Shown here: positions 31,351-62,736 of the stretch, in pieces
Layout of the letters: each line of letters opens with the position of its first letter
Numbering within the stretch: position 1 is the first letter of the stretch
Source: Pelobates cultripes
Taxonomy: Eukaryota > Chordata > Amphibia > Anura > Pelobatidae
Assembly: GCA_933207985.1 (NCBI GenBank)
Contig: OW240917.1
Coordinates: 103,028,898 to 103,092,897, forward strand
DNA: 64,000 nt
Direction: 5' to 3'
The notes under the pieces: model-generated
The model's input: only the letters and a program-made list of their open reading frames with translations
Told to the model about the DNA's origin: nothing
Database searches by the model: none
Translations under genes and position numbers: made by a program

Positions 31351-31778
31351 TGTGATGGGATTTCAACATGGTTCAAAATTTAGTAGGCCTGAAATCTCCA
31401 GGTGGCATATACAAGTACAGGTGTTTGTTGTATCTGTTAGTTAGTTACATGTAGCTAAGATACTGTCATCAATGTACTGAGCATGTGCATCAACTGTAGT
31501 CACATTACTTTGTCCTTAAAAGGAGTCATACGGTCTGCCCATATGAGGTGATCATGAATATCTTGTTCACTGATTGGTCTAAGGGTATGTGTGGGTGAAG
31601 CTAGGAATAGGAGGAGTTATTGTTAATTAAAAGCATTTGCAAACTATGCTCTGGGCTCATTTGCAAACTATGCTATGTTCATCTGAGACCCAGTCGGTAA
31701 CAATAAAGACCTTTTTCTTCCTGAACAAACCTGCTTCCATCTCTCTATGTGTGGCTTCTGATGTGTTTTCCGGTAACA
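31351..31778 (+). repeat. 5' LTR of the provirus
   Basis: 428 bp, TGTGATGGG to GGTAACA. A polyadenylation signal AATAAA lies at 31702-31707. Compared with the 3' LTR it has a small extra duplication of TTTGCAAACTATGCT near 31660 and an extra TATGTGTG near 31588. Confidence 0.9.
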
Positions 31779-33489: not shown

Positions 33490-33917
33490 ATGGAGGTTGC
33501 AAATAAGGTACATATGAATAGGGAAACTGAGCGTGAGGAGGAACGTAAAATGAGGAAGAAAGCAGACATGTTAGCGGTAGGTGTAGCGAGACAGGGAGGG
33601 GAGATGGATAGAGGAGTTGAGGCTAGGATGAGCAGGGTACACTAGGGGGAAATCAATGTGCTTATTGTAAAGAGGAAGGACATTGGAAGAGTGACTGCCC
33701 ACAGAAGGGATATATTGTAGGTGGTAGACCAGATGAGAGAAGGGGGCGAGGTGGTTATGGTGGTAGCTTTAGAGGAAGAGGAAGTTTTGGAGGAAGTAAT
33801 GGAAATGGCAGAGGGGGTGTTCAGGAAGGAAGATATTATCCCCCTACTCATAGACTTAGGGATAGGGAAGATAGAGATTTTGTGGGTCTGGCAGACACTG
33901 TTATGGAAGACTATTGA
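33490..33917 (+). pseudogene. gag remnant with nucleocapsid zinc knuckle and RGG-like tail
   Basis: A frame running into pol encodes one CCHC knuckle (CAYCKEEGHWKSDC, about 33657-33698). A Gly/Arg-rich stretch follows (GRGGYGGSFRGRGSFGG, about 33744-33795), and the frame ends with TGA at 33915-33917. Upstream is a charged region (ETEREEERKMRKKADML) broken by a stop near 33640. Nucleocapsid normally binds and packages genomic RNA. The TGA is in the same frame as protease, the layout expected for stop-codon readthrough in gamma-type viruses. Confidence 0.75.
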
Positions 33918-36558
33918 TACCGACTGGGCTCCATCCCCCTTGGCCGAGCGGAGCCTATGGTTGATGTAACAATAGGGGGAAAGAGAAGTCCTTTCATGAT
34001 TGATATGGGTGCTGAACATTCTGTGGTGACTAAGTTGGTAGCTCCTCCTTCTGGAAAGACTGTAACTGTAATAGGAGCTACTGGGAGAAGCGCTGCTAGA
34101 CCGGTTTTCAGGAGTCGCACTTGCATTTTAGGAGGCCATTTTGTGAAGCACCAGTTCCTCTATATGCTAGAGTGTCCAATTCAACTTCTAGGACGAGATC
34201 TATTATCAAAGCTTCAAGCTCAGATAACTTTTCTACCTAATGGATCAACGTCTGTGAAGTTTAATAAATCACCAGGCATGATAGCAGTATTGGTACCAAA
34301 AGAAGAAGAATGGCGCTTCTACTCTGTAATAACAAATGCAAACCCTAAGAGTGATGGATCTTTATTTGACATTCCAGGAGTATGGGCAGAGAATAATCCT
34401 CCAGGACATGCTCGTAATATCCCACCGATACATATTGAACTAAAGCTTGGGGCCTACCCTGTGAGCCTGCGCCGGTTTTACATACCTCAGAAGGCCAAGA
34501 AGAACATACAGATCTACTTGGATAAGTTCATGAAGTATGGCATCCTAAAATTCTGTACCTCCCCTTGGAACACTCCATTAGTACCTGTTCAGAAGCCAGG
34601 ATCAGATGAGTATCATCCTGTACAAGATTTAAGAGCAGTTAACGATGCAGTAGTTAATATACACCCAGTGGTACCCAACCCCTATAATCTGCTTGCCATA
34701 ATTCCTGGTGGGGCACCTCCCTTTACAGTCCTAGATCTTAAAGATGCTTTCTTCTGCCTTCGACTTGCTGTTGAAAGTCAGTGCATCTTTGCTTTTCAAT
34801 GGGGAGATGCTGTTACGGGATCAAAGCATCAGATGACTTGGACCAGGTTGCCTCAAGGATTCAAGAATTCACCTAACCTATTTGGATCTGCACTGAATCA
34901 AGATTTATAAGACTTCAAATCCATCCCAGGAGAATGTGTATTGCTTCAGTACGTGGATGATCTCTTGATAGCCGCAGTTACTAAAGAGATGTGCCAAAAA
35001 GCAACCCATGTTCTACTCCATATTCTTTGGAGGGCAGGTTACAAGGTATCAAGGAAGAAGGCTCATTTGTGTTAGCCAACTGTCAAGTATTTAGGATTCC
35101 ATATCTCTGAAGGCCAAAAAACAATGGGACCTGAAAGAAAATAAGCAATGTGTCGAATACCTGTACCCATGAACAGAAGACAAGTGCGAGAATTCTTGAG
35201 AGCAGCAGAGATACTTTAGTTATTGGAGGCAGTATGGAAACCAAAGGAAGTCGGTATCATACATTGCAGAGCACATCTGAAAGGTGATAGTGATGTGATG
35301 AGAGGAAATCGCATGGCAGACAATGCTGCAAAATGTGCTGCTGAATCAAGACAAGAAGATCACGTGAACCATGTTACTGCTCTTGTACTTGCACCCTTGT
35401 CTCAATGGACTCCATTGTATACAACCCAAGAGAAGAAGTGGTTGGAAACTGAATCTGGAAAATACTTGAAGAATAATTGGTATCAGCTAGAAAATGGAAG
35501 AATAGTGATTCCGGCATCTCTGGCCATAGAGATTGTTCAGAACCATAGTGGTACCCATTCAGGAAGAGATAGTATGGAAGAATCTCTCAGCAAACATTTC
35601 TACATTCCAAGACTATCCAACCTTTCCCAAGCTATTGTCTGAATATGTGTTCAGTGCGCTCGCAACAACACAAGACAAGGCACTGTCAAACCGCCTGGAG
35701 TTCAATATATGGGAGGACTTCCCATGTCAGATTTACAAATAGATTACACGGTGATGCCTAAATCTGGAGGGTATCGTTACCTGCTGGTAGCGGTGTGTAC
35801 CTACTCTGGTTGGGTAGAGGCATGTCCTACTCGTACAGAAAAAGCAGAAGATGTACGGTTTCTGTTACGGGAAGTTATACCCAGATATGGACTTCCATGT
35901 TCTATAGGATCTGATAATGGTCCAGCTTTTGTCCATCAATGTTTACAACAACTGACTCATGTACTTGGCATCAAGTGGAAACTGCATACTACTTATAGGC
36001 CTCAGAGTTCTGGAAAGGTAGAAAGGATGAACAGAACGATAAAGACTCGATTGGCTAAAATGTGTCAAGAAACTCAGCTCAAGTGGAATGTACTTTTGCC
36101 AATAGCTCTGGTGTGAATACATAGTACTCCTACTAGAAGAATGGTTCTGTCTCCCTTTGAAATGATGTATGGGCGTCCATCTCCCATACTCAGTAATCTA
36201 AGGGGGGACTTATGTCAGTTAGGTGATGGAATTACTCGGCAGCAGGTTGTGGAGTTGGGTAAAAGTATGGAGGAGGTACAGAAATGGGTGCAAGATAGGT
36301 TACCTGTGAACATATATCCACCTGTTCACGCATACCATGCGGGTGACAAAGTATGGATAAAAGAATGGAATACTGTCCCATTGGGTCCAAAGGTCCTTAT
36401 GTTGTTCTTTTATCTACCCCAACAGCTGTAAAGGTGAAAGAGGTGACTCCTTGGATTTATCACTCTAGGGTTAAACCAGCAGCAGATTCATGGCAAGCTA
36501 CTCCAGATCCTGAGAATCCTTGCAAGATCCGGTTTAAGCGAATAACCCAGTCAGATTG
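33918..36558 (+). pseudogene. pol: protease, RT, RNase H remnant, integrase (decayed)
   Basis: One reading frame holds nearly all of pol. Protease: FMIDMGAEHSVV, where the catalytic Asp-Thr-Gly is Asp-Met-Gly, a change expected to inactivate it. RT: PVQDLRAVNDAV, TVLDLKDAFF, then an in-frame TAA at 34908-34910 just before the YVDD box (about 34960). More stops lie near 35074, 35142 and 35219. RT connection and most of RNase H are deleted in frame; only the tail (RGNRMADNAA) remains. Integrase: an HHCC zinc region broken by TGA at 35640, and the DDE core with LQIDYT, GSDNGPAF and GKVERMN. A stop lies at 36114 and a frameshift near 36395. Non-functional. Confidence 0.9.
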
Positions 36559-36748
36559 AACGTGACGTGAGGAAAAATACGAGGGGATATCGGGATATCG
36601 TGGTTAAAAGCCTGACCACCTCACTACTTGTCATAGCCAGATGTCTCAAAGGGACCTCTGTGAAAGTAAGTGAGGATCAGAAGGACAACAATCCTTGCAG
36701 CCCTCACGAGCGGGAAGCTGAGGTGCCGTTGCACGGTCGAAGAGTAGG

Positions 36749-38769
36749 ATGAAGACCACAAGAATGATGTGTTTAGTTATATGTTTCAGTATTTTTATAA
36801 TTTTTCAGGAAGGTAAATGTGAGGATATTACAAGCTCACACCCTAATTTGGCACTCACAATATGAATGTAAAGAATCTGTGTCTAGGTGTAGGTACTTAG
36901 ATACTGATTATAGTGTGTGTCAACCAATATCAGGTGAGGCTAAGTGTTTTTGATCCCCAATTCCAGCCCCGTACAATTTGGTTGGTAATTCAAAATAGTA
37001 ACTCTCAGGGAACATTGATAAATAGGACTTTGATAAGCACCATACATTCTACGGGTATTCTATTATTTGATGCATGTAAGACGATTTCGGGTAGTAGAAA
37101 ACCTTGGAATGTATGTGGTAATCTTAAATGGGAACAAACTTATGGGTTCAACAATAAATATTTATGCCCTAGTAAAAGATCTACTGATCCTGACTGCCCA
37201 AATAGAGACTTCAACTTCTACCCATATTGGTCATGTGTAGGTTGGGCGACTTGGGGAAAGACATTAGATCAAGATATGATTATCCAAAGGTTGCCCACTA
37301 CACTGTATTGTAAAACCATGGAGTGTAATCCTGTACATATGACCATTTCCAATCCGCAGCAATTTATTGATATGTTTGGGAGTCTTTTTGGGTTTCAGAT
37401 ACATGGTACAGGAACAGATCCTGGAGCCATATTATATGTAGGTGTTGAAACAGAGAGAACAGCTGCTCAGACTCATCAGGTTTTCCATTCCTTTTATGAG
37501 GAGATGAGTTTTGAGGATAAAGTTCCCCATAATGTTAAGAATCTGTTTATTGATTTAGCGGAGAGTATAGCAGGTAGTCTTAATATAACTAACTGCTTTG
37601 TATGTGGAGGTACTAATATGGGAGACCAATGGCCCTGGGAAGTAAGAGAAGTATGGTACCCTGGTTCTGAGACAAATGAACAACAGATGCCTTCCCAAAC
37701 TGGCCATCAAGTAAGTGTAAGAGAAAAATTGGAGTGGCGTTTAAAGACATCTATTATAGGCCATGTATGTTTAGCTAGAAGAGGGCCAATGTATAATACA
37801 CCTGTTGGCGATTTAACATGTTTGGGACAGAACGCCTATAATGCCGATACTAAAGATACTACTTGGTGGTCAGCTTCAAATGTCTCGGAACCTACTAATC
37901 CATTTGCCAATTACACCAATTTGAAAGAGATATGGTTTGATCTATCTGCTACATCTTATTGGAAAGCCCCAGCAAACTTATATTGGATCTGTGGTAAGAA
38001 AGCATACTCGGAATTATCACAAGATTGGGAAGGTGCATGTGTGCTAGGTATGCTCAAACCATCCTTCTTGTTGCCAATTGAAACAGGAGAGACCTTGGTA
38101 GTTAAGGTTTATGATGTAAATCATAAAAAGAAGCGAGCATCATTGAACGTAGGTAAATAGGAAGATGATGAGTGGCCTCCCAACGTTTTATTAATTACTA
38201 TGGACCTTCTACCAGGGCTGAAGATGGCACATATGGTTATAGAACCCCCATATATATGCTCAACCGCATTATAAGATTACAGGCGGTGGTTGAGATCATA
38301 TCCAATAAGACAGCTAAGGCCCTTAACCTTTTGGCGAAGCAAAATACCTGCATGAGATCAGCCATTTACCAAAATAGGCTGGCTCTTGATTATTTGCTGG
38401 CAGTAGAAGGAGGTGTGTGTGGAAAGTTTAACCTTAGTAATTGTTGTTTGCATATAGCTGATGAGGGGCAGGCAGTGATTGACATTACCAGCAATATGGT
38501 TAAACTGGCACACGTACCCACTCAGACTTGGAACGGGTATAATCCAAATAGTTGGTTTGGGAGTTGGTATGAGCAGCTTGGTGGGAGTGGTATTTGTTAT
38601 TTTTTTATGCCTCTTCCTGCCCTGTCTGATTCCATTAGTAGGTAGGTCTATACGTAGTGTTATTGAGAGCACTATAAAGAGGAAGAGAGCTGCCTATGTA
38701 ATGGCCGTTTGGAAATATGAACCCCTAGCCCAGAGAGAGACTATTAATGATCAGGTCAATGAGTGTTGA
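36749..38769 (+). pseudogene. env: gamma-type surface and transmembrane glycoprotein (decayed)
   Basis: Starts at ATG 36749 with a hydrophobic signal-like stretch (MCLVICFSIFIIF), but a TGA and a frameshift follow near 36860. The surface part is otherwise open from 36913 to a TAG at 38158-38160. It has a CFVC (CXXC) motif near 37599 and a basic cleavage-like KKKRA near 38128. The transmembrane part (38172-38645) has a heptad region and a [10 protein letters not shown] motif (CX6CC). CXXC and CX6CC together mark gamma-type Env with a disulphide between subunits. The membrane anchor ([18 protein letters not shown]) has shifted to another frame. Not functional as it stands. Confidence 0.85.
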
Positions 38770-38896
38770 GAGGTAATAGAGTTGTTAGAATGCTTACAGG
38801 GTCTGTCCCGGCTCATGGTTACTTGAAAGGTGTTAGCAAATTATGATTAGTGATGCAGCTGGAATAACTTTGTATCAGAAGCATCAAAAGGGGGAA

Positions 38897-39315
38897 TGTA
38901 ATGGGATTTCAACATGGTTAAAAATTTAGTAGGCCTGAAATCTCCAGGTGGCATATACAAGTACAGGTGTTTGTTGTATCTGTTAGTTGGTTACATGTAG
39001 CTAAGATACTGTCATCAATGTACTGAGCATGTGCATCAACTGTAGTCACATTCCTTTGTCCTTAAAAGGAGTCATACGGTCTGCTCATATGAGGTGATCT
39101 TGAATATCTTGTTCACTGATTGGTCTAAGGGTGAAGCTATGAATAGGAGGAGTTATTGGTAATAAAAAGCATTTGCAAACTATGCTCTGGGCTCAGACAT
39201 TTTTGGAACAGGAGTTCATCTGAGACCCGATCGGTGACAATAAAGACCTTTTTCTTCCTGAACAAACCTGCTTCCATCTCTCTATTTGTGGCTTCTGCTG
39301 TGTTTTCCGGTAACA
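38897..39315 (+). repeat. 3' LTR of the provirus
   Basis: 419 bp, TGTAATGGG to GGTAACA, preceded by the polypurine tract. AATAAA at 39239-39244. Nearly identical to the 5' LTR apart from small indels and scattered substitutions, which indicates a fairly recent insertion. Confidence 0.9.
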
Positions 39316-39702
39316 TTACAACACATGCCGTAGATGCTCAGCAGCCACTTCTACAGCAAACTGTCATGTGCCGTGTGTTCTCACAGCTTTCTAACATGGC
39401 CAGCCATATGTTTTTCAGTAATTTGATGTACAGTAGCTCTTCTGTATGATCGGAACAGATGGGCTAGCCGTCGATTTCCATTTGCATAAATGACCTTGGG
39501 CGCCAATGACCCTGATGCTATTTCACGGTTGCCCTTTCTTGCACCACTTTTGGTAGGTACTAACTACTGTATACTGGGAACACCCCACAAGACTTGCTGT
39601 TTTGAAAATGCTCTGACCCAATTATCTAACCATCACTTTTTAGACCTTATCAAAGTCACCCAGATCTTTTTGCTTGCCCATTTTTTCCTGCTTCCAAAAC
39701 AT
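39316..39702 (-). repeat. Tc1-like element, second part (split by provirus)
   Basis: Continues the transposon of 31146-31350. The minus strand encodes the N-terminal DNA-binding region of a Tc1-like transposase (the complement of ACCCCACAAGACTTGCTGTT and TTGCTTGCCCATTTTTTCC). Most of the central catalytic region between the two parts is missing, so the copy was already internally deleted or lost it with the provirus insertion. Confidence 0.65.
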
Positions 39703-39900: not shown

Positions 39901-40471
39901 TACATATCCTGAGATGGGGATTGTACCATCCACGTGCTAAACAGCAGAGCTCTTAGCAGCTCAAGAAAGTGTGAGTTAGCATTTTATTGGGATAAAAATT
40001 ATTTTAATATTTACCTGACATACTGTACTATCACCTTTTCCTTTCTGATTTTTTTGAGGCCGTCATAATACCATACATCAGTGGACCTCATATAGTGTAT
40101 GTATTTGCATGAATTTCTTTAATACACTTTTCCCTTTTGGTGCGGTTTACCTTCCTCTTTCTTACACTCACTAACTTATGATTATAATGCCTACATGTCC
40201 CTTTTAATGATTATACTCCTCCATTCTGCCTTTTTTATATTTATCTTTTTTTCCTTTTGTTCGATATCATTATCTGAGCATGACCATTTGGCTCTCCTTT
40301 GTCCATGAAGTATGCAGTTTGCAGTATTCTGTGGAATTCTCTTGACTAATTGATTCTGGGTAAATTACTATGGAAACTGGAAATCTTGTTTAAGCTTCTC
40401 ACCTTGCCTGACATCATGCTCTACATACACACCCATGCTTTGTCATATATATATATATATATATATATATA
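39901..40471. other. spacer with (AT)n
   Basis: Nothing recognised except the (AT)n microsatellite at about 40445-40470. Confidence 0.5.
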
Positions 40472-41417
40472 AATCCTAATAGGTTATGGTGGGGAAAAAT
40501 TGTGATTGAAAACATAGAAACATAGAAACATAGAAACATAGAATGTGACGGCAGATAAGAACCATTCGGCCCATCTAGTCTGCCCAATTTTCTAAAAACT
40601 TTCATTAGTCCTAGCCTTATCTTATAGTTAGGATAGCCTTATGCCTATCCCATGCATGCTTAAACTCCTTTACTGTGTTAACCTCTACCACTTCAGCTGG
40701 AAGGCTATTCCATGCATCCACTACCCTCTCAGTAAAGTAATACTTCCTGATATTATTTTAAACCTTTGTCCCTCTAATTTAAGACTATGTCCTCTTGTTG
40801 TGGTAGTTTTTCTTCTTTTAAATATAGTCTCCTCCTTTTACTGTGTTGATTCCCTTTATGTATTTAAATGTTTCTATCATATCCCCCCTGTCTCGTCTTT
40901 CCTCCAAGCTATACATGTTAAGATCCTTTAACCTTTCCTGGTAAGTTTTATCCTGCAATCCATTAACCAGTTTAGTAGCCCTTCTCTGAACTCTCTCTAA
41001 AGTATCAATATCCTTTTGAAGATATGGTCTCCAGTACTGCGTACAATACTCCAAGTGAGGTCTTACCAGTGTTCTGTACAATGGCATGAGCACTTCCCTC
41101 TTTCTACTGCTAATACCTCTCCCTATACAACCAAGCATTCTGCTAGCATTTCCTGCTGCTCTATTACATTGTCTGCCTACCTTTAAGTCATCAGAAATAA
41201 TCACCCTAAATCCCTTTCTTCATATGTTGAGGTTAGGACTCTATCAAATATTCCGTACTCTGCCCTTGGGTTTTTACATCCAAGATGCATTATCTTGCAC
41301 TTATCCACATTAAATGTCAGTTGCCACAATTCTGACCATTTTTCTAGTTTACCTAAATCATTTGTCATTTGGCTTATCCCTCCTGGAACATCAACCCTGT
41401 TACATATCTTAGTATCA

Positions 41418-41981
41418 TCAGCAAAAGACATACCTTACCATCAAGACCTTCTGCAATATCACTAATAAAAATATTAAGAGAATGGGTCCAAGTACAGATC
41501 CCTGAGGTACCCCACTGGTGACAAGTCCAAGCTTCGAATATATTCCATTGACTACAACCCTCTGTTGCCTGTCACTCAGCCACTGCCTTACCCATTCAAC
41601 AATATTGGAATCCAAACTTAAAGATTGCAGTTTATTGATAAACCTTCTATGTGCAACAGTGTCAAAAGCCTTACTGAAATCTAGGTAAGCAATGTCTACT
41701 GCACCACCCTGATCTATTATTTTAGTTACCCAATCAAAATAATCAATAAGATTAGTTTGGCATGATCTCCCTAAAGTAAACCCATGTTGTCTCTGATCTT
41801 GAAATCCATGTGTTTTTAGATGTTCAACAATCCTATCCTTTAACATGGTTTCCATCACTTTCCCTAATACTGAAGTAAGGCTTACTGGCCTATAGTTGCC
41901 CGACTCCTTCCTATTACCTTTCTTGTAAATGGGCACAACATTCACTAACTTCCAATCTTCTGGCACTACTCCTGTTAACAA
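41418..41981 (-). pseudogene. CR1-like LINE reverse transcriptase fragment
   Basis: 187-codon open part of RT containing the motif 2 region (NYRPVSLTSVLGKV), the catalytic aspartate motif (AYLDFSKAFDTVAHR) and the SGVPQGSVLGP motif. The frame shifts just before FADD, which is in another frame (41201-41431). It would copy LINE RNA at the nicked target if intact. Confidence 0.85.
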
Positions 41982-43022
41982 TGATTGGTTAAATAAATCT
42001 GTTAATGGTTTTGCTAGTACACCACTAAGCTCTTTTAATAGCTTTGGGTGTATTCCATCAGGTCATATTGACTTATTTGTCTTTACTTTTGACAGTTGAA
42101 ATAGAACCTCTTCCTCTGTAAACTCACGTGTAATAAATGGCTCATTTATCCTTTTTCTCAACTGAGGTCCCTTTCCTTCATTTTCTTCTGTAAATACAGA
42201 ACAAAAATATTCATTGAGGCAGTCAGCCTGACCTTTATCCTCTTCTACATACCTTCCTTCTTTTGTTTTTAATCTAACTAATCCTTGTTTTACTTTTCTT
42301 TTCTCATTTATGTATCTAAAAAATGTTTTATCCCCTTTTTTACTGACTGTGCTATTTTCTCTTCTGTGTGTGATTTGGAAGCTCTTATAACTTGCTTAGC
42401 CTCTTTCTACCTAATCTTATAGATCATTTTGTCTTCCTCACTCTGGTTTTTTTTATAATTCCTAAATGCTAACTTTTTGTTTTTAACTATTTTGGCCACA
42501 TCTGCGGAGTACCACAGTGGTTTCTTGAATTTTTGCTTTTACTGACAAGCCTAATGCAATTTTCTGTTGCCTTCAATAGTGCAACTTTTAAATAATCACA
42601 TTTCTCTTGGACTCCATTTAAATTGCTCCAGTCTGATAATGACTCCTCTACCCATATTCTAATTTTAGAAAAGTCTGTTTTTCTAAAGTCTAAAACTTTT
42701 GTTTTTGTGTGGTGTGACTCAGTCACTGTTCTTATATTAAACCACACTGACTGACTGATCACTGGATCCTAAACTTTCACCTACAGTAACATCTGATACC
42801 AAATCTCCATTTGTTTACACTAAATCTAGTATGGCCTCTTTACAAGTTGGCTCCTCAACAACTTGTTTTAGAGACAATCCCAGTAGGGAGTTTAGAATAT
42901 GTGTGCTCCTGGCACAAGTAGCTAATTTTGTTTTCCAATTTACATCAGGAAGATTAAAGTCACCCATGATGATAACTTCCCCTTCATTGTCATTTTAGCT
43001 ATTTCCTCAACTAGTAGATTAT

Positions 43023-43445
43023 CTAACTCTTCAATTTGTCCTGGGGCCTATAAATCACACCTACACGAGTTACTGTGTGATTACCAAATTCTAACATAGC
43101 CCAAACGGACTCTATGTTTGCCTCACTAACTTTTATTAGGCTAGATTTTATGCTATCCTTCACATACAAGGCCACCCCTCCCCCTTTCTTGCCTTCCCTA
43201 TCTTTCCTATATAAAGAGTACCCTGGTATTGCTATGTCCCAGTCATTTTTCTCATTGTACCATGTCTCAGTAACAGCGACTAAATCTACACTATCAGTTG
43301 CCATTATTGCCACAAGTTCATGGATCTTATTCCCTAAACTGCGAGCATTTGTAGACATGACTCTAAGCTTATCATTTTTTAACACACTTGCTACAGGCAC
43401 CTTCTGTCCTTGTTTTGGGGGACAATTGGATTGATGTTTTATCAC
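43023..43445 (-). pseudogene. CR1-like LINE endonuclease fragment
   Basis: 140-codon frame with APE-type endonuclease features: an Asn in STNARSL, the Glu of VTETW and YRKDREGKKGGGVALY. The later GDFN motif is in a different frame around 42960. It would nick the target DNA if intact. Confidence 0.75.
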
Positions 43446-43980
43446 CCTTTTGCCCCCCCCTCCTAGTACATCCTAGCAAAACCTCTGAACTGCTCACTGA
43501 GAACATTTGTTCCCTTTTGAGAAAGATGCAAACCATCTTTTTTGTACAGCTTATCTCCATTCCAAACAGAGCTACCATGAGAAATAAAGCCAAATTATTG
43601 GAAATAAAGCCAAAAACCCCTTCCACCTGAAGTCTGTTGATAGTTAATACAATGTTAAACAAAAATCTGCACACCAGTCAAGCCATAAGACTTGCTTTTC
43701 CCACAGAAATCCCAAATCAGCAGTGATGTTACAATTGCAAAGGATTCTGGGTGGGCATATGCAATTTATTTAACAAAGAATCACATTTTTGCCTCATTCC
43801 ATTTTAAACATGGATTCCTTTTAATCTGTGTTTGCAGTATACAACTGCTTGGAACACAATTTAGGAAAAGATGCAAAACCAGTGAACCACTCATGGACAG
43901 CTGTTTCGTTGTTAATGCAACTCTTCAGCATGAGGTTGGTTACTGGTTTGCTTATTGAGGCTTGATAGTGCTTGGGAAGC

Positions 43981-44167
43981 AAAATCCAAATAGGTTATGG
44001 TGGGGAAAAATTGTGATTGAAAACCCCTTCCAATTGAAGTCTGTGGGTAGTTAATACAATGTTAAACAAAAATCTGCACACCAGTCAAGCCATAAGACTT
44101 GCTTTTCTCACAGAAATCCCAAATCTGCAGTGATGTTACAATTGCAAAGGATTCTGGGTGGGCATAT
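43981..44167. repeat. uninterrupted second copy of a 190-bp direct repeat
   Basis: Matches 40472-40504 joined to 43617-43760 (blocks AGTTAATACAATGTTAAACA, CACACCAGTCAAGCCATAAG, AAAGGATTCTGGGTGGGCAT). The two copies are separated by about 220 bp, so the original tandem period was about 400 bp. Confidence 0.85.
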
Positions 44168-44771
44168 ATAACAAATAATAAAACAAATGAAGGCTATAGA
44201 GGGAAAGGATTTTATTTCAAAGTGCAAAGTGCTGCTTTAAAGGGATACTGTAAGTACCAAAACAAATTTAGCTTAACCTCTTAAGGACTGGACTGTTTTT
44301 GCGATGTTGTACATTTGCGACCAGGCCTCTTTTTTACACTTTTGTGGTGTTTGTGTTTAGCTGTAATTTTCCACTCTCTCATTTACTGTTCCCATACAAA
44401 TTATATATTTTTTTTCAGGACAAAAGAGGCTTTCTTTACATACCATTATTTATATAATCTCATGTAATTTAATTTAAAAAAAATAAAAAAATATGATGAA
44501 AAATTGAAAAAATATGTTTTTTGACTTATACTTGAAAAATCTTTTACTCATCTACAAAAGCGAATGAAAAAAACTGCTAAATAGATTCAAAATTTTGTCC
44601 TGAGTTTAAAAATACCCAGTGTTTACGTACTTTTTTGCTTTTTTTTGCAAGTTATAGGGCTATTGGTACAAGTAGAATATTGCGGTTTCAAAACATACAT
44701 TTTTAAAATTTATCAATAGTGACATTATAACACTATTATCTGTCATAAATCTCTGAATTACACCCCACATG

Positions 44772-45808
44772 TGTAGCCGATGGCACTGGGCTGCCCTAAA
44801 AATTACATGTGTTTAACTGCATTCATGTAAACTGCTGGTTTTGAATGTGTTAAAATAAAGTGTATTTGTCTGATTGTTCGGTAGAATCATTTGAATAAAC
44901 TAAGGGAATGAAACTACCGAACATTCAGACCTCCTCTGTGTGAAGTGTGCCTTCAATTACCCATTGCAACAATGTTGCAAACGGGTAATTAACAAGCTAT
45001 GCAGTAGGTCCTTTGTTCGCGGGGTGGCCGGCATTCGGGAAACGAACACGTGGTGGCGTCAATTTTAATGTTTTGTCGTCGAGTGTCTGGAACTCAAATT
45101 GGACACTCGACTAGGCGAACCCCGCTGAGACCTCCACAAGCCCAGTCCGTTCGGTTCCAAACAACCGAACGTCCTCTCGTTCAGTAGACAGAAACAACCG
45201 AACGAGGGGATTCATACGAACCCTACCTGATCTCTGTAGCCTTAGCCTTTCGTGTAATTTATTCCCTTATACTGGGACCGACCGCAGGGCCCCATCGCAT
45301 GGAACCCAATTCGGCTGTTCTCTCCAGCGCGGTCGGTCTTTTTAGTACTTCCATAAATTTCCCGAACCCCTGGTCTGATCCGGGTGATTTTTGGATATGT
45401 TGCTCACCCAGATCAGGGCTACCAGGGGATGTGCCATTTAAAGGGGTACCCCTAGGTTTAGGGGTACATCCAGAAACTGGGGGAATTTGTGTACAGTATA
45501 AGGGGATTATGAGTCAGGCTGAGGGGAGGAGATAGGTGGGAGGTTACTATTGTCGGATTGGGTACTGTACTAATTGATGAAAATCCCTCCCTTGCATGGG
45601 AGCATGCTATATAAGGCCACTGTGGAATAAAGGTTTTCAGTTCTGCTCCTGATGCTGTGTGTCGTCCAGTTATTGGGATTGCTGTTGGGATACTGTTGGA
45701 TTATTTTGCCTGCTGGAAACCTTGCCTGTGGATTTATAATTACTTGTTCCTGAGCCTCACTGGGATCTTAAGCGGAGATAATCTGTGGAATATTGTATCT
45801 CCGCTACA
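44772..45808 (+). mobile_element. 1,037-bp solo LTR
   Basis: Begins TGTAGCCGATGG and ends ATCTCCGCTACA, flanked by ACATG (44767-44771) and ACGTG (45809-45813), a 5-bp duplication with one mismatch. It has a TATATAAGG box near 45609, AATAAAGG near 45627, and a CGTCCAGTT segment also found in the complement of the LTR at 9677. Removing it restores a continuous ACATGTACATATTT sequence in the host element, which fixes the boundaries. Confidence 0.85.
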
Positions 45809-45834
45809 ACGTGTACATATTTTTTTTAAAGTAG

Positions 45835-46050
45835 ACAACCCAGAGTATTCAATATGGGGTATGTCCAGTCTTTTTTAATAGCCACTTAGTCAAAAGCACT
45901 GGCCAAAGTTAGCATTCATATTTGTTTGTGTGTGAAAAAAGTAAAAAACTAAATTGAACGCTAATTTTGGCCAGTGTTTGTGACTAAATGCCTACTAAAA
46001 AAGACTGGACATACCCCATTTGCAATACTTTGGGTTGTCTTCTTTTGCAA
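45835..46050. repeat. long hairpin 1 of the nested TTAA element
   Basis: GGGGTATGTCCAGTCTTTTT and AAAAAGACTGGACATACCCC are exact complements within a larger inverted repeat, with AAGTAGACAACCCAGAGTAT on the outer left matching ATACTTTGGGTTGTCTTCTT on the right. Confidence 0.85.
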
Positions 46051-46189
46051 ATAGTATGCCATCATGGGGCTAATTCTCATTCCTGGGCTACCATACGCTC
46101 TCAAAGGCAACATAATCAATCTGGCCTTTTTCAATGTAAAAATATTTGACCCATATATTTGACCCTGTAACTTTCAAAAACGCTATAAA

Positions 46190-46440
46190 ACCTGTACATG
46201 GGGGGTACTGTTATACTTGGGAGACTTTGCTGAACACAAATATTAGTGTTTCAAAACAGGAAAACATATCACAACAATTATATCATCAGTAAAAGTGCTG
46301 TTTGTGTGTGAAAAATGCAAAACAAGTCATTTTCACTGACAATATCATCGCTGTGATATGTTTTACTGTTTTGAATCACTAATATTTGTGTTCAGCGAAG
46401 ACTCCTGAGTAAAACAGTACCCCCCATGTACAGGTTTTAG
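46190..46440. repeat. long hairpin 2 of the nested TTAA element
   Basis: CCTGTACATGGGGGGTACTG pairs with CAGTACCCCCCATGTACAGG. The inner arms ACACAAATATTAGTGTTTCA / TGAATCACTAATATTTGTGT also pair. Confidence 0.85.
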
Positions 46441-47034
46441 GGTGTCATAGAAAATTACAGGGTAAAATATAGTGTTAGCAAATTATATTCTCTGGATTTT
46501 CGGCCTGGGTTGGCAGGCTGGTCCCTCAAATTGCAATCAATAAAATTACTTAATTATGTAAAAATATTACATAAATACGCACATAGAATTTAAATATATA
46601 TGCATATTTATATATTTGAAGTCTACATGTATATTTATATAATTATTTATGTAATTTTGTATATGGACATATGTATATTTCGTATTATTTTTATTTATTT
46701 ATATATACATAGATTTATATATATACAATTTCTTTCTAAGTGTATTTTGATATAAATATATATATATTATTATCAAAATACAGTTAGAATAAAATTTCAT
46801 ATAGCTATATATATTTTCTAAATTTTTTATTATTTTTACATGTTTTTATTTAATTTAAAATACTTTTTTGTATTTTATAATAATATTTATATACAATATA
46901 TATAGTTATTATATATATTATATATATACGTGTGTAATTTAATTACAAGTGTATTTTTATATTAATATATGTACATATTAATATAAAAATACACTTAGTA
47001 TGACATTATATATATGATATATAGACATATATTA

Positions 47035-47062
47035 TATATATATATATATAATATGTCTATAT

Positions 47063-47100
<38 letters not shown>
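47035..47100. repeat. (TA)n microsatellites
   Basis: Two alternating TA runs separated by the palindrome ATGTCTATATATCATAT. They form part of the AT-rich section of the nested element. Confidence 0.9.
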
Positions 47101-47102
<2 letters not shown>

Positions 47103-47862
47103 TAATTTATTTTTATTTTTATTAACATTAACTTTTATTATTTTTATGATTTTACACTAGTAGGGAGACTGCCTGTCAGCACAGGCAGTCATCCTGCAAG
47201 CAGACACATGGACACCTATTGTGACCATGTGATCGCTCTGTTGAGCAATCACATGGCCCCAGGGTTCCTAATCCGTCGCGGGGAGACTGTCTGGGCTGCA
47301 GGCAGTCTCTCCAAACTGGGAGCAACGCCGATCGCCGCCGGGGGAATGACGGCGATCGGGTAAGTACATTGCACCGTTAGGACAGTTCAGGACCGTCACC
47401 GGTCGGCAATGCAAAAATGCCGATGACGGTCCTGAAGTGTCCTCGGTCCTGAAGGGGATAATGAAGCAGTCTGCAGTCTCATTGCTCAGGTATCTGGCAT
47501 TTAGTAGTTGCATCACTTTGTTTATATAGCCCTATCCAAATACAACTTCCATGAAAAAAAGTTAAATTTTTGAAGTGTGTTTAATTTAGAAGCTCTTATC
47601 TCTTGCTCTGTTCATTGAACTCTACTTATATACATGAGGTGGTTGTAGGCTTTAGCAGGCAATTAACAGAGCTGGAGATAAGAACTTCTAAATTAAACTG
47701 ACTTTGCAATAGGGATAGTTCGAAAGATTGACCTCTTTATTTCAGAAAGTGTGTAGGGAGATTGTGTGAATCACATTCCAAGATCTGTGGCTACGATGGC
47801 ATAAACAAAGTGATCTAACCCACAAATGGCAGTGAACTGAGCAGTTAGTGTTCCTTTTGGCA

Positions 47863-48618
47863 ATTGGTACCAGGATATTAAAATCTAATATGATTTTTTC
47901 ATTGAGCATTATGGTTTCAATCACATTTTTATGTTCCTGTTTCTGCCTACTCTCACAATGATACCTTTCACTTTTTTTTAAATTAAGTTCTCATATTACC
48001 TTGCAAGACATTGTGATCCTCACTCTACATTTACTGTACTTTGACAATTCTTCACTTAGATGCTTCACTTTCACTCGAAACACTGATCTTCAACCTTTAC
48101 TTTTACCTCCTGTTATATTAAAATACATGACACACTCCTACAGGTTCAAATCTTAAACACTATTTCTTTCCTGCTGTCAGAGATAATTCATGACATGTTA
48201 TTTCCCTTATCCCTTCTTGTTATTATGACTGCTTAACTTTTATTCTTGCTTAAAACAAGTATAAACTTATTTTTCCATCTCCAGAAAGCTTTTAAGTATT
48301 CAGAGCTCTCTAGAAATTATAGTTTATTTTTGTATGCTTGAAATGCAACTGATTGTCACATTTGAAATAGTCATAAATTAAATAACCATATATTAATGTG
48401 ACACAAAAGTTTTTTTTAAGATTAAGTGAATTAATTTGTAATACACCTCTTACTTAAATCCTTACTATTTGCATACCTTTTGATATTCATTATGCGTGTG
48501 CTTGTTCTAAATAGGGCTACTTTCCTTTGACATCAAACTATTTATATGAAAACGGAGGGAAAAAGACAGTTAATGGTACACAAGTATAAGGGGGATAACC
48601 TCAGGTGTAATCTGTATA
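47863..48618. other. AT-rich spacer, nothing recognised
   Basis: No supportable gene, RNA or terminal repeat. Confidence 0.5.
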
Positions 48619-49987
48619 AGGAGAGAGAAGTAGTGTACCAATTAGGGGAGCTGGGATGAATGGCAAATATACAAGTACAAATAATCAATACAGTAAAGAG
48701 AAATCTCCAATATCTAATGTAGAAGCAAGAAAATAATAAATACTTTATTTATACGAAAATGTAAAAAGTTGCCTAAAGGCAATTACCCAAAGTGCTGTAT
48801 ACAAACAAAATGTGTGACAACCCAAAATGGAAAATAGAAGAAAGAATATTAAAACATATTGCTACAAAATATCGATGTCTAATAAATTGATATACTATGA
48901 AAAATATGCTAAGTATATAAGAATAAGCACACGTCTGTGCTAAATATACTAGTCAAAATATGTGACTGGGAATAGCAACTGCTAATCAGGATCGGTATAG
49001 AATTGCTGTTATAAAAAATAGATGCTGCAGGACACATATTGTGCCTTAAGTGATACGTGCTGCCTGTAAGGATTATACTCGTATAGGATGGCGTAGTAGC
49101 GATTGCAAGGGGTAAACTGCAGTATCAGCTAAATCCCATAGTAGACTCCAACTCCCATACATGGTAGGCATAGGTAAACAGAAGAACCTTTCTGAACTGT
49201 GTAAAAACCCCTGGGACTGGATGGTTCCGAAAGCAGAGTGAGGGTAACCAAGGTTGTTAAATCATAGCTAAGCCTTGCATTTGTGTCAGTATTTAAGACA
49301 TATAGTAATGCTGAACTTAGACTAACACTCCTATTGCTAACAGGCAAGACTATGTATGGCTGTGAATTGCTACCTATATAGCAGTGCCTGGGACTCGATT
49401 GTGCTGGGAGCAGAGTGGGGGAAATAGCACTTAGAATAGAAAACTCTTATTAGCTAATAAAGCTTGCGTGCAAGTAGTGGACTTTAATCACTGGTCTGAT
49501 GATTAGAGAGGTCTCTACAAGGGTAATGCTATATTTAACAAATAGCATTGCTACACTCCCCCCAGTGCCTTTGAGGGCACCTTAAGCTATTCCCATGTTG
49601 GCTATATATACACGATCCTTAGTACTGTTCATAAACTGGAGATGTGTACAATATATGGCTGTGGATTGCTACCTATAGAGCAGTGCCTGGGGCTTTATAG
49701 GTGCCAGGAGCAGAGAGAGGGAAATGACACTAAGAAAACAAACGCTTAGTAGCTAATAAATCTAGATCACTTGTCTTGTAAAGCTAATGCTACATTGACA
49801 CATAGCCATGCTACACTGTTCCTCCGTTCCTTCAAGGGCACTTCAAGCTATTCCCATGGCAGCTATATACACAAAATCATTTGTAAAGTTCGTTAGTTAG
49901 AGATGTGTTAGAGCCAGATTGCTAATAACAAAACATAGTGTAAAGTCCTAATACTGTCAAGAATAATCAGAGACAGCATCAAGTGGA

Positions 49988-50030
49988 CCCCTGATTCGCG
50001 CGTTTCGCCCGGCCTGGCTCGTCAGTGGGG
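49988..50030 (-). ncRNA. hammerhead ribozyme, degenerate copy (left arm)
   Basis: On the minus strand: stem I CCCC, core CTGACGA (complement at 50019-50025), stem II GCC...GGC, GAAA (complement at 50003-50006), then CGCGCGAATC and AGGGG. Stem II has changed on both sides relative to the right arm (GAC...GTC), keeping the pairing. Stem III no longer pairs well, and the first stem I pair is A-A. The site triplet is AUC. Probably weak or inactive. Confidence 0.65.
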
Positions 50031-50215
50031 AACCGGCTGTTATACCGCACAAGGTTCTTGATTTATAACTTCCTGCGATTTGAACCTTGGCATTAAGGAG
50101 GAGCCTCCACGGTACATGTGGACATGTTGAAGTCTAACCAATAAGAAGTACTTACCTTGAACCAATCAGAATCTTTCTCCTCCTTTTTAAACCTTGCGCG
50201 GTATACTGGCTGGTT

Positions 50216-50258
50216 CCCCTCTGACGAGACAGGTCGGTCGAAACGTGTGCGTCAGGGG
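50216..50258 (+). ncRNA. type I hammerhead ribozyme, intact core
   Basis: A self-cleaving RNA. Stem I: CCCCT (50216-50220) pairs with AGGGG (50254-50258). Core CTGACGA (50221-50227) fits CUGANGA. Stem II: GAC (50228-50230) pairs with GTC (50237-50239) around loop AGGTCG, with the conserved closing G-C. Then GAAA (50240-50243). Stem III: A-U plus C-G and G-C around a UGUG loop. GTC at 50251-50253 is the cleavage site, so cleavage is predicted between 50253 and 50254. The very short stem III is typical of hammerheads in retroelements, which may act as dimers. Confidence 0.88.
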
Positions 50259-51605
50259 TCCACTTGATGCTGTCTCCGATCATTCTTGACAGCATTAGCA
50301 CTTTACATTATGTTTTGTTATTAGCGAACTGGCTCTAACACATCCCTAACTAACAAACTTTACAAATGATTTTGTGTATATAGCTGCCATGGGAATAGCT
50401 TGAGGTGCCCTCGAAGGCACGGGGGGGTGGGGGGGGAGAGTGTAGCATGGTTATTTGTCAATGTAGCATTACCTTTATAAGCGTTTGTTTTCTAAGTGTC
50501 ATTTCCCTCTCTCTGCTCCCGGCACCTATCAAGACCCAGGCACTGCTCTATAGGTAGCAATCCACAGCCATATATTGTACACATCTCCAGTTTATGAACA
50601 GTACTAAGGATCGTGTATATATAGCCAACATGGGAATAGCTTAAGGTGCCCTCAAAGGCACTGGGGGGAGTGTAGCAATGCTATTTGTTAAATATAGCAT
50701 TACCCTTGTAGAGACCTCTCTAATCATCAGACCAGTGATTAAGGTCCACTACTTGCACGCAAGCTTTATTAGCTAATAAGAGTTTACTTTTCTACGTGCT
50801 ATTTCCCCCACTCTGCTCCCGGCACAATCGAGTCCCAGGCACTGCTATATAGGTAGCAATTCACAGCCATACATAGTCTTGCCTGTTAGCAATAAGAGTG
50901 GTAGTCCCAGTTCAGCATTACTATACATCTTAAATACTGACACAAATGCAAGGCTTAGCTATGATTTAACAAACTTGGTTACCCTCACTCTGCTTTCGGC
51001 ACAATCCAGTCCCAGGCGCTTTTACACGGTTCAGGAAGGTTCTTCTGTTTACCTATGCCTACCATGTATGGGAGTTGGAGTCCTCTATAGGACTTAGCCG
51101 ATACTGCAGTTTGCCCCATGCAATCCCTACTACCTCTCCATCCTACACGAGTATAATCATTACAGGCAGAACGTATCATTTAAGGCTGTGTCCTGCAGCG
51201 TCTATTTTTTATAACAGCGCTTCTATTCCGATCCTGATTAGCAGTTGCTATTCCCAGTCACATATTTTTGACAGACGTGTGCTTATTCTTATATATTTAT
51301 ATTCTTATATACTTAGCATATTTTTCATAGTAAATCGATTTATTAGGCATCAATTTTTGTAGCAATATTTTAATATTCTTTCTTCTCTTTTCCATTTTGG
51401 GTTGTCACACATTTTGTTTGTGTACAGCACTTTTGGTAATTGCCTTTAGGAAATTTTTTACATTTTCGTATAAATAAAGTATTTATTATTTACTTGCTTC
51501 TACGGTAGATATTTGAGATTTTTCTTTATCTGCATTATTATTTGTACTTGTACATTTGCCATTCATTCCAGCTCCCCTAATTGGTACACTACTTCTCTCT
51601 CCATA

Positions 51606-51942
51606 TTCAAACTATTCATAAAACTATTAAATAAACATTTCAGTTATTTTTCCTTTTTTTTTTATTTCTTGCCATGTCTTTTACCTCTACATTATACATT
51701 GATTTTCTTTCATCCTTTCTTCGTTATCTTCCAAGAAATCACCTCCTTTTAGAATGTTGCTGTCTTTCTGACCCTCTAAAGACAGCAATCCAAAGCAAAT
51801 AAACATTGTGAGCTATTCATCAATACATTCATCTTATACTGGTGTGGTATGACAAGCAGGCTTGTTTCACACAAGTCAAAATCAATGACTGCTAAAGTAT
51901 GTTGTGAAGAGCACTTTATCTTCTATATCTTATATGGAGAAT
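51606..51942. other. AT-rich spacer, nothing recognised
   Basis: Pyrimidine-rich (51640-51740). No supportable feature. Confidence 0.5.
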
Positions 51943-58743: not shown

Positions 58744-60305
58744 CAGGGAGTGCAGAATTATTAGGCAAGTTGTATTTTTGAGGATTAATTTTATTATTGA
58801 ACAACAACCATGTTCTCAATGAACCCAAAAAACTCATTAATATCAAAGCTGAATATTTTTGGAAGTAGTTTTTAGTTTGTTTTTAGTTTTAGCTATGTTA
58901 GGGGGATATCTGTGTGTGCAGGTGACTATTACTGTGCATAATTATTAGGCAACTTAACAAAAAACAAATATATACCCATTTCAATTATTTATTATTACCA
59001 GTGAAACCAATATAACATCTCAACATTCACAAATATACATTTCTGACATTCAAAAACAAAACAAAAACAAATCAGTGACCAATATAGCCACCTTTCTTTG
59101 CAAGGACACTCAAAAGCCTGCCATCCATGGATTCTGTCAGTGTTTTGATCTGTTCACCATCAACATTGCGTGCAGCAGCAACCACAGCCTCCCAGACACT
59201 GTTCAGAGAGGTGTACTGTTTTCCCTCCTTGTAAATCTCACATTTGATGATGGACCACAGGTTCTCAATGGGGTTCAGATCAGGTGAACAAGGAGGCCAT
59301 GTCATTAGATTTTCTTCTTTTATACCCTTTCTTGCCAGCCACGCTGTGGAGTACTTGGACGCGTGTGATGGAGCATTGTCCTGCATGAAAATCATGTTTT
59401 TCTTGAAGGATGCAGACTTCTTCCTGTACCACTGCTTGAAGAAGGTGTCTTCCAGGAACTGGCAGTAGGACTGGGAGTTGAGCTTGACTCCATCCTCAAC
59501 CCGAAAAGGCCCCACAAGCTCATCTTTGATGATACCAGCCCAAACCAGTACTCCACCTCCACCTTGCTGGCGTCTGAGTCGGACTGGAGCTCTCTGCCCT
59601 TTACCAATCCAGCCACGGGCCCATCCATCTGGCCCATCAAGACTCACTCTCATTTCATCAGTCCATAAAACTTAGAAAAATCAGTCTTGAGATATTTCTT
59701 GGCCCAGTCTTGATGTTTCAGCTTGTGTGTCTTGTTCAGTTGTGGTCGTCTTTCAGCCTTTCTTACCTTGGCCATGTCTCTGAGTATTGCACACCTTGTG
59801 CTTTTGGGCACTCCAGTGATGTTGCAGCTCTGAAATATGGCCAAACTGGTGGCAAGTGGCATCGTGGCAGCTGCACGCTTGACTTTTCTCAGTTCATGGG
59901 CAGTTATTTTGCGCCTTGGTTTTTCCACACGCTTCTTGCGACCCTGTTGACTATTTTGAATGAAACGCTTGATTGTTCGATGATCACGCTTCAGAAGCTT
60001 TGCAATTTTAAGAGTGCTGCATCCCTCTGCAAGATATCTCACTATTTTTGACTTTTCTGAGCCTGTCAAGTCCTTCTTTTGACCCATTTTGCCAAAGGAA
60101 AGGAAGTTGCCTAATAATTATGCACACCTGATATAGGGTGTTGATGTCATTAGACCACACCCCTTCTTATTACAGAGATGCACATCACCTAATATGCTTA
60201 ATTGGTAGTAGGCTTTCGAGCCTATACAGCTTGGAGTAAGACAACATGCATAAAGAGGATGATGTGGTCAAAATACTCATTTGCCTAATAATTCTGCACT
60301 CCCTG
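58744..60305 (-). mobile_element. Tc1/mariner-type DNA transposon (DD37E), nearly intact
   Basis: 1,562 bp between TA dinucleotides. The termini CAGGGAGTGCAGAATTATTA are identical in inverted orientation for about 25 bp. A second inverted pair lies about 190 bp inward on each side (GTGCATAATTATTAGGCAAC at 58934-58955 and its complement at 60104-60125), an inner/outer repeat layout as in IR/DR transposons. The transposase is on the minus strand with one frameshift. Confidence 0.93.
59072..60087 (-). pseudogene. Tc1-type transposase (DD37E), one frameshift
   Basis: About 338 codons in two frames, 59650-60087 and 59072-59653, usual length for the family. The N-terminal paired-like DNA-binding part (SEKSKIVRYLAEGCSTLKIA; RDHRTIKRFIQNS) is intact. 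A one-base deletion near 59668, just at the first catalytic aspartate region, breaks the frame. Downstream are FMQDNAPSHAS (second Asp) and SPDLNPIENLW (Glu), with 37 residues between the Asp and Glu. It would cut and paste the element at TA sites. Confidence 0.9.
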
Positions 60306-61156: not shown

Positions 61157-62736
61157 CACCCTGTTCCAAATTATTATGCAAATTATATTTTTCTCATTTA
61201 CCTAAATAATTGATGTAAATAACAGTCAGCATTATTCTCATGTTATCAACTATTAAGAGTACAATTCAAATTTTATTGAACAAACTTCCTAATGATAACA
61301 GTATTTTTTTTAAACATAAAAAACTTAGAATGCACTGTTCTGAATTATTACGCACAGTAAGTTTCAAAACACTTTATAGGTTGTAAAGAACTGAAAATTG
61401 TCATTTGTTGTGTTTGCAGCATATTTACTGAAATCAAAAGCTATTTCAATCAAACTTATAATAACATTTAACTTTTTAAACATTTTAACAGGTCACGTTA
61501 CATTTTAACATAGGACCCCTTATTTGATAGCAGCTTCACAAATCTTGCATCCATTGAACTTGTGAGTTTTTGGACAGTTTCTGCTTGAATTTGTTTGCAT
61601 GATGTCAGAATAGCCTCCCAGAGCTGCTGTTTGGATGTAAACAGCCTCCCACCCTCATAGATCTTTTGCTTGAGGATGGTCCAAAGGTTCTCAATAGGAT
61701 TGAGGTCAGGGGATGATGGAGGCCACACCATGACTTTCTCTCCTTTTATCCCCATAGCAGCCATTGTTGCAGATGTATTCTTTGCCGCATGAGATGGTGC
61801 ATTGTCATGCATGAAGATGATTTTATTACGGAAAGCATAGTTCTTCTGTACCAGTGATGAAAGTAGTCAGTCAGAAACTCCACATACTTTGCAGAGGTCA
61901 TCTTCTTTACACCTTCGGGGACCCTAAAGGGGCCGACCAGCTCTCTTTCCATGATTCCGGCCCAAAACATGACTCCACCACTGCCTTGCTGACGTCGCAG
62001 TCTTGTTGGAACAGGGTGGCCGTCCACCAACCATCCACTACTCCATCCATTGGAACCATCCAGGGTTGCATGGCACTCATCAGTGAACAGGACTGTTTGA
62101 AAATTTGTCTTCATGTATTTTTCTGCCCAATGCAGTGTTTCTGCTTGTGAGCATTGGTTAGTGGTTGCCGAATAGAAGGCTTATGCACAGTTGCAAGACT
62201 CTAGATGACTCTACACCTTGATGTCCGTGGGACTCCAGAGGCACCAGCAGCTTCAAATATCTGTTTGCTGCTATGTAATGGTATTTTAGCAGCTGCTCTC
62301 TTGATCCGATGCATGGATCTGGCAGAAATCTTCCTCAATGTGCCTTTATCTGCACAAACCCATCTGTGCTCTGAATCAGCCACAAATCTCTTAATAGTGC
62401 TATGATCACGCTTAAGTTTTCGTGAAATATCTAGTGTTTTCATACCTCATCCAAGGCATTGAACTATTTCACTTTTTTCGGCAGAAGAGAAATCCTTTTT
62501 CTTCCCCATATTGCATGAAAATGGTGCTCTGCTTAATAATGTGGAACACCCTCCGTTAGTAGTTTTTCTTTATATTGGGCTCACCTGGCAATCCAATTAT
62601 TACAGTTGTCCGAGATTGTTTTCAGTGATCAAAAGAGCCCTGAGACACAATGCCATCCATGAGTTAAACTGAAAAACTAAATATTTAATCTTTGTGACAC
62701 TGAAATAGAAATTGCATAATAATTTAGAACAGGGTG
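61157..62736 (-). mobile_element. second Tc1/mariner-type DNA transposon (DD37E), decayed
   Basis: 1,580 bp between TA dinucleotides, inverted termini CACCCTGTTCCAAATTATTA and its diverged complement (ATAATTTAGAACAGGGTG). Inner repeat copies are suggested at 61333-61356 (CACTGTTCTGAATTATTACG) and 62535-62550 (ATAATGTGGAACACC). Transposase on the minus strand. Confidence 0.9.
61498..62509 (-). pseudogene. Tc1-type transposase (DD37E), multiple breaks
   Basis: Read from ATG at 62507-62509 on the minus strand (MGKKKDFSSAEKSEIVQ). A TGA soon follows; the frame then reads ISRKLKRDHSTIKRFV and IHRIKRAAAKIPLHSS-like helix-turn-helix text (62201-62443). The middle is at 61746-62114 (SGGVMFWAGIMERELVGPF) and the end at 61498-61812 (HDNAPSHAAKNT, SPDLNPIENLW). 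The Asp-Glu spacing is 37. At least one stop and two frameshifts make it a pseudogene. Confidence 0.88.

Follow-up and report, generated by a model that had tools for sequence, protein, structure and literature searches.

The question raised by this locus is whether a short stretch of frog DNA that reads like a self-cleaving ribozyme owes its likeness to descent, and whether it is still at work. The stretch lies at 50216-50258 of the 64,000 nucleotides of Pelobates cultripes DNA analysed here (the window), and the sequence-only reading had claimed for it a type I hammerhead with intact core, three stems and a GUC triplet, placed in a repeat whose RNA cleaves itself. The letters, the core, the stems and the triplet agree with the sequence letter for letter, and the predicted cut falls where that reading had put it (Table 1). 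The layout is that of RF00163, with the core CUGANGA, the GAAA, an NUH triplet, three stems and an open stem I. The stem III that the earlier reading gave as 2 bp belongs to a longer stretch of 8 nt, which is self-complementary once G.U pairs are counted.

Table 1. Positions in the window of the hammerhead motif and its parts, of the element around it, and of the second hammerhead with its surroundings
Feature	Position	Strand	Remarks
Type I hammerhead motif, right arm	50216-50258	+	Direct reading, descriptor, Rfam model alignment
Stem I, 5' strand CCCCT and 3' strand AGGGG	50216-50220; 50254-50258	+	
Core CTGACGA	50221-50227	+	
Stem II and loop GACAGGTCGGTC	50228-50239	+	Pair GAC/GTC, loop 6 nt
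GAAA	50240-50243	+	
Stem III stretch CGTGTGCG	50244-50251	+	8 nt, self-complementary with G.U
TC	50252-50253	+	GTC triplet; predicted cut 50253/50254
Right arm, Penelope pLTR without ORF	50190-51614	+	Inverted-repeat alignment and collinearity with L052
Spacer between arms, 133 nt	50057-50189	.	
Left arm, head-to-head copy of the same pLTR	48608-50056	-	About 89% identical to right arm
Sister motif, left arm	49988-50030	-	Core letters intact; 13.2 bits with Hammerhead_1
Second type I hammerhead	43890-43934	-	35.3 bits, above the Rfam cut-off of 34
Parts of the second hammerhead		-	Stem I CTCATG/CATGAG, stem II GTTG/CAAC, palindromic stem III CAGCTG
Tandem retrozyme with second hammerhead	43613-44167	-	Unit 407 bp (43613-44019)
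LINE inserted in the retrozyme	~40514-43612	-	RT and endonuclease domains; 3' end with AAACATAG repeats
Remainder of second retrozyme unit	40471-40513	-	Separated by the LINE insertion

A chance resemblance was considered and is ruled out by a shuffle test together with genome counts of the core pattern. A descriptor (core CTGANGA...GAAA...UH, with at least 4 pairs in stem I, 3 in stem II and 2 in stem III) finds two loci in the window, versus two in total in 400 dinucleotide-preserving shuffles of it, where no locus has a stem I of 5 pairs or more. Throughout the genome, the pattern CTGACGAN{4,20}CGAAACG has 2418 matches (1237 + 1181), versus 268 (135 + 133) for the reversed control. The Rfam model Hammerhead_1 aligns to the motif end to end at 26.0 bits, with an E-value of 2.6e-4 for 361 bases and 4227 families, or about 1e-5 rescaled to one family and 64 kb. 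Both this score and the 13.2 bits of the left-arm motif lie under the 34-bit gathering score of RF00163, so that by Rfam's rule the right-arm motif is not a member of Hammerhead_1; it is likewise absent from the default Rfam scan, from a permissive scan of 43000-51700 and from a permissive scan of the whole window at E<=0.05.

The placement in a repeat was correct, since the motif stands in one arm of an inverted repeat that spans about 3 kb (arms of about 1.4 kb each) and has many genomic copies. Each strand of this element carries a single hammerhead motif. The sister in the left arm has GCC/GGC as its stem II, the same as the family majority, and is broken at stem III (CGCGCGAA) and at the first pair of stem I (A.A). 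Pieces of the window arm at 50129-50426 and 51366-51613 match one Penelope-like element (PLE) copy, L052, at 2889-3194 and 4263-4512, in the same order, and five protein queries gave no PLE protein match in the 64-kb window at E 1e-6. For these reasons we regard the element as a pair of Penelope-type pseudo-long terminal repeats (pLTRs) without ORF; by collinear nucleotide homology, the window copy is placed in the Penelope family as a non-autonomous remnant. No Pfam match was obtained in three arm ORFs at E<=1. Over about 208 bases (50535-50742 and the left counterpart) the arms show no difference at all, while other windows of 100 columns differ by 1-21%, and arm-to-arm conversion is the likely origin of the difference-free stretch. 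By eye only, TATA-like letters can be seen 25-37 nt upstream of each motif, at 50184-50191 (+, at the spacer edge) and at 50062-50067 (-).

The wider family is large. The 251 bp around the motif have at least 44 genome matches, a lower bound, of which four are the window element itself and 40 lie elsewhere (a few sharing one place), and these are 68-88% identical, with the exception of one 29-base piece. With Rfam, at least five genome matches were obtained, a figure not usable as a count (74 of 316097 candidates scored). Three patterns gave no match to relatives in viral contigs. Around listed places on contig 1 we sampled 48 loci, which represent 45 distinct places; because they were chosen by a pattern that fixed the core and the adjoining bases, they are uninformative on core conservation. 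With the same five protein queries at E 1e-6, a Penelope-like protein match lies at 19 of these 45 places on the same strand, upstream of a motif; at one it lies on the other strand only, and at 25 there is none, five of the latter having been covered with only 1.5 kb on either side. One of these loci, L046, carries an ORF of 798 aa with 357 protein matches, the best named among the 120 listed being from Leptobrachium, Dendrobates, Hyla, Pelobates and others. Residues 123-796 of its 798 align over 677 columns, at 31% identity, with an Anolis protein in which Pfam finds both RVT_1 and GIY-YIG above cut-off. Of these two domains, Pfam sees only RVT_1 in the frog ORFs, and that below cut-off; no solved structure matched, and NCBIfam gave nothing above cut-off for three Penelope frames. 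It is through the protein matches and the Anolis homology that the ORF with reverse transcriptase and GIY-YIG endonuclease, which defines this family, is recognized in the relatives. The kind proposed at the outset, a hammerhead with a short stem III as known from Penelope-like elements, is borne out by this.

The check that had been proposed was for many genomic copies with covarying stems, and many copies were found in which stems I and II indeed covary. From 60 motifs, one without UH was dropped and 12 duplicates were removed, leaving 47 distinct ones. In these, bases pair with their own partners at 0.888 in stem I and 0.920 in stem II, versus 0.687 (maximum 0.771) and 0.682 (maximum 0.787) when partners are exchanged, with 0 of 5000 exchanges reaching the observed value for either stem; collapsing the set to 27 motifs left this outcome unchanged. 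Among the ten motifs of the window type, changes on both sides occur in 4 pairs, versus a shuffled mean of 1.1 (2/500), and none occur when the partners are slid by 1-3 columns. Compensatory stems of the kind that RF00163 calls for are present, though the exchange test is weak in the ten window-type motifs alone (stem I 287/5000, stem II 217/5000).

For the conservation of the core, a set was drawn with a pattern anchored on the flanks of stem I that left the core free. Of its 139 matches, 100 were listed, of which 79 are family-like (60 of them distinct) and 21 were rejected, namely 20 other or chance sequences and one true family member with a one-base insertion. The 60 distinct motifs show core deviations in 27 of 720 cells, a count slightly favoured by the rejection of sequences with more than 4 of 10 core mismatches, and have many stem II sequences, whose first pair is G-C in 44, G.U in 8, A-U in 6 and unpaired in 2. 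In 31 of the 47 distinct Penelope hammerheads (L031-L078), stem II starts with an A that fits only unpaired after CTGACGA, unlike the Rfam consensus. Stem III is 4, 6 or 8 bases long among the relatives (7 in one copy) and wholly self-complementary, G.U allowed, in 38 of the 47 distinct motifs and in 32 of the 60 from the core-free set. Such self-complementarity is described, in the available extracts of PMC3088659 and PMC7229834, as a mark of hammerheads able to act as dimers. The column majority of the relatives' stem III is CGCGCGCG, found exactly in 4 of the 8 members of one relative set and in 2 of the 12 of another.

A core changing at the neutral rate had been named as the observation that would speak against the hammerhead. 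We compared 14 sequences, both arms and the first 12 by E-value of 24 outside matches that cover the motif fully (8 further outside matches lack one motif base). Differences from the majority amount to 8/168 in the core, 43/434 in the rest of the motif (p 0.049) and 58/238 in the flanks. Outside CpG sites, the core is slower than the rest of the motif (2/140 versus 17/266, p 0.025), whereas at CpG sites it is not (6/28 versus 26/168). The core is thus slower overall and outside CpG sites, and it is the latter result that answers the question in favour of past function. From the covarying stems and the core-free set, we conclude that the motif is a hammerhead by descent.

The orientation of the copies bears on what kind of element carries it. 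Among the 100 places listed, motif neighbours less than 10 kb apart point outward in ten cases, in the same direction in two and inward in none. Inverted arms enclose Penelope protein matches at L039, L042-L046 and L048. At L041, positions 352-2151 form a palindrome of 1800 bases, 99.5% identical and without PLE match, that carries two outward hammerheads 358 bases apart; this is a young version of the window element, which is therefore not alone. For bdelloid Penelope elements, the available text of PMC3846280 describes inverted pLTRs with palindromic inverted junctions, the head-to-head form being the most frequent, and promoter motifs that point both ways. As far as that text goes, the arrangement seen here, two Penelope pLTRs head to head without an ORF, is one already described.

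Two other explanations for the motif and its surroundings can be weighed against this. These letters (CTGACG...CGTCAG) have a 9-bp hairpin as their best monomer fold, and the motif could be nothing more than a conserved hairpin or DNA palindrome with the looks of a hammerhead. Such a hairpin, however, predicts nothing about a covarying stem II or a persistent GAAA, and the hammerhead layout is retained in three CTGATGA copies whose best fold (-12.6 to -14.7) is weaker than that of four of five window-type CTGACGA copies (-17.8 to -21.0; the fifth, L053, folds at -13.4); we give this explanation next to no credence. Our initial reading was that of a DNA transposon whose terminal repeats contain hammerheads, and the long inverted arms with internal partial repeats, as well as the numerous outward-facing inverted pairs, would suit a foldback transposon that acquired a hammerhead in its terminal inverted repeats. 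This reading was abandoned once Penelope frames were found between such arms, at the seven loci given above, and the same arrangement is reported for Penelope in the available text of PMC3846280; for these two reasons we do not use the name foldback DNA transposon. Nor was a target duplication found at the element ends, in a test of little power: no repeat of 6 or more stands directly at the ends and one 6-mer is offset, given that 79% of random pairs would share a 6-mer by chance, and Penelope insertions lacking a target-site duplication are also reported in that source. A foldback transposon thus appears extremely improbable here, though marginally less so than the bare hairpin. In titles and abstract openings, with few subscription papers covered, no description of this element came up among hammerheads in foldback, TIR, palindromic and frog elements.

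Taken together, the motif is very probably a Penelope-like pLTR hammerhead, of the type with reverse transcriptase and GIY-YIG endonuclease, that sits in an old ORF-less head-to-head pLTR pair, with a dimer as the likely working form and the window copy as a relic of it. Each pLTR of the window carries the motif on its outward strand. In Penelope RNA, the pLTR hammerhead would pair with a second pLTR copy through its palindromic stem III, and the paired RNA would be cut after GUC, a mechanism modelled on the ribozymes published for Penelope and newt; the working form would likely be a double hammerhead to which a pair of pLTR RNAs contribute, whether tandem or in trans. In the window the palindrome is weakened and no same-strand partner is left, and what stands there is only a remnant of the machinery. 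It is this weakening of the palindrome and loss of the partner that most likely makes the copy a relic. One may also imagine that the spacer acts as a bidirectional promoter for two outward RNAs with hammerheads at their starts and an identical palindromic stem III, which would form a double hammerhead in trans that trims both 5' ends, making the element a non-autonomous, ribozyme-processed foldback Penelope derivative. This we consider very unlikely; the left stem III of the window is broken, and the idea would suit a younger pair, L041 for instance, better.

The proposed self-cleavage of the repeat's RNA at 50253/50254, perhaps as a dimer, did not find support, given the poor predicted fold, the lack of a same-strand partner, the pairing with the left arm and the state of the nearest relatives. 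For the window copy, the hammerhead fold is less stable than the best fold by 12.5 kcal/mol in the monomer and by 24 in the dimer, and with flanks of 0-200 bases (five lengths) its mean stem probability is 0.002-0.14, versus 0.77-0.79 for the second hammerhead in the window. Exact and one-mismatch scans of the window revealed no same-strand partner, and thus no dimer in cis would form. In a read-through transcript of both arms, 39 of the 43 motif bases are predicted to pair with the left arm. None of the 12 nearest relatives passes the intactness rule, and the core is broken in 7 of them, while intact copies are present further down the match list (e.g., C3:299054228).

The right arm differs from the family majority at four sites, every one of which preserves pairing: in stem II, C-G has become A-U, and in stem III two C-to-T changes of the CpG type have turned CGCGCGCG into CGTGTGCG. 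The A-U version of stem II was found beside an intact core at one other genomic place, with a different loop, in a search to which copies with a damaged core are invisible. The double change looks private to the window copy, which gives no sign of a propagated variant, and for the same reason the compensatory change between the arms, for which both conditions together come to 0.002-0.003, is a weak sign only.

Could the window copy nonetheless be catalytically active today, as monomer or dimer, and process the RNA of the repeat? It has kept all core letters and pairs, G.U allowed, despite four differences from the majority, which four simulated random substitutions would do with a probability of 0.014 (uniform) to 0.077 (CpG-weighted), and the core and the stems are conserved across the family. 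Against this stand the energies and stem probabilities given above and the missing same-strand partner. In fold controls from viral contigs, moreover, the gap is 1.3-2.9 in 24 of 29 hammerhead-like motifs, 4.4 in one and 12.4-21.1 in four, the last four probably having been given a wrong stem III by the selection rule; the comparison is hard on the window motif, as its stem III is shorter than that of most of these controls. By our estimate, chance would produce about one intact copy among 14, and the letters of the window copy have probably survived by chance. Poor folding as a proof of inactivity was also considered and is no such proof, because it is partly a family trait: the abundant subfamily of L057, with a stem II counted 13 times in the 79 family-like rows, folds equally badly (gaps of 15.0 and 16.8). 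On balance, present activity is unlikely, and fold predictions suggest that the copy is most likely a relic with weak self-cleavage or none. According to the available text of PMC11167929, a Penelope hammerhead from Anolis cleaved only when its protein was there, and insertion in vitro did not depend on it, and the same authors mention that self-cleavage of Penelope had been seen earlier at 3-25 mM Mg2+.

Penelope-like hammerheads are known from earlier work (Cervera and de la Pena 2014; Lunse et al. 2017, as cited in the available parts of PMC7761336 and PMC6155905). As presented there, they have in common with the frog motif the type I topology, a very short or palindromic stem III, the location in pLTRs, thousands of copies and a likely cleavage as dimers. 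Unlike these, the window copy stands in an ORF-less inverted pLTR pair, with a weakened palindrome and no tandem partner. Published Penelope hammerheads are said in both sources to lack the tertiary contact between the loops of stems I and II. The Poseidon element PAc of Anolis carolinensis, in the accessible part of PMC11167929, likewise has a hammerhead at its pLTR and the same kind of RT-endonuclease protein; the Anolis protein that is 31% identical to the L046 ORF is of the PAc kind, which does not imply identity with PAc itself. The PAc motif overlaps the start of the ORF, whereas in the frog copies about 0.4-2.3 kb separate the end of the protein match from the motif that follows it. With the inverted-pLTR Penelope of Adineta vaga (PMC3846280, available text), the window element shares head-to-head pLTRs around an ORF or other sequence, and palindromic junctions, but the pLTRs there measure about 200 bp versus about 1.4 kb for the window arms; the word 'Hammerhead' has no occurrence in the main text of that paper.

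The metazoan non-LTR retrozymes, e.g., those of axolotl, as described in the available extracts of PMC7229834, do not fit the motif at 50216-50258, which has no tandem hammerhead units of 150-450 bp, but they fit the second hammerhead of the window, with its 407-bp tandem units, each with a hammerhead, 38% GC and palindromic stem III. The two 148-bp repeats of this element, at 43613-43760 and 44020-44167, are 96% identical. Its genome matches, full or partial units, number at least 146, many of them 97-98% identical, and arrays reach seven to eight units (e.g., C6:231249558-231252568). The element is thus a retrozyme in the sense of PMC7229834, as far as the definition in those extracts goes. 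For many of its copies the match begins at query position 358 (358-407 in 17 rows) and ends near 32-50, so that they comprise about 1.2 units. Neither end falls at the hammerhead cut, query position 124, as would suit copying of a circular or multimeric RNA from a fixed starting point.

The window holds further repeats. A degenerate endogenous retrovirus at 31351-39316 (+) has flanking repeats that are 91.5% identical and domains for protease, RT, RNase H and integrase, with an envelope-like match below cut-off. Two transposase remnants on the minus strand (59072-60117 and 61498-62180) both contain DDE_3, the first also HTH_38, and presumably belong to the Tc1/mariner-like superfamily. An AT-rich long hairpin at 45844-46027 matches several microRNA precursor models below their cut-offs and is probably a MITE-like inverted repeat.

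Taken by itself, the single motif in the window is ordinary for its kind. What gives it meaning is the company that it keeps: the hammerhead, noticed in the bare letters of frog DNA, belongs to a large Penelope family whose stems covary within a single genome and which includes inverted copies with and without ORF. This genome thereby holds a natural series of intact and decayed hammerheads, with varied stem II and a stem III of 4, 6 or 8 nt, and such a series could serve to test what the Penelope ribozyme is for.
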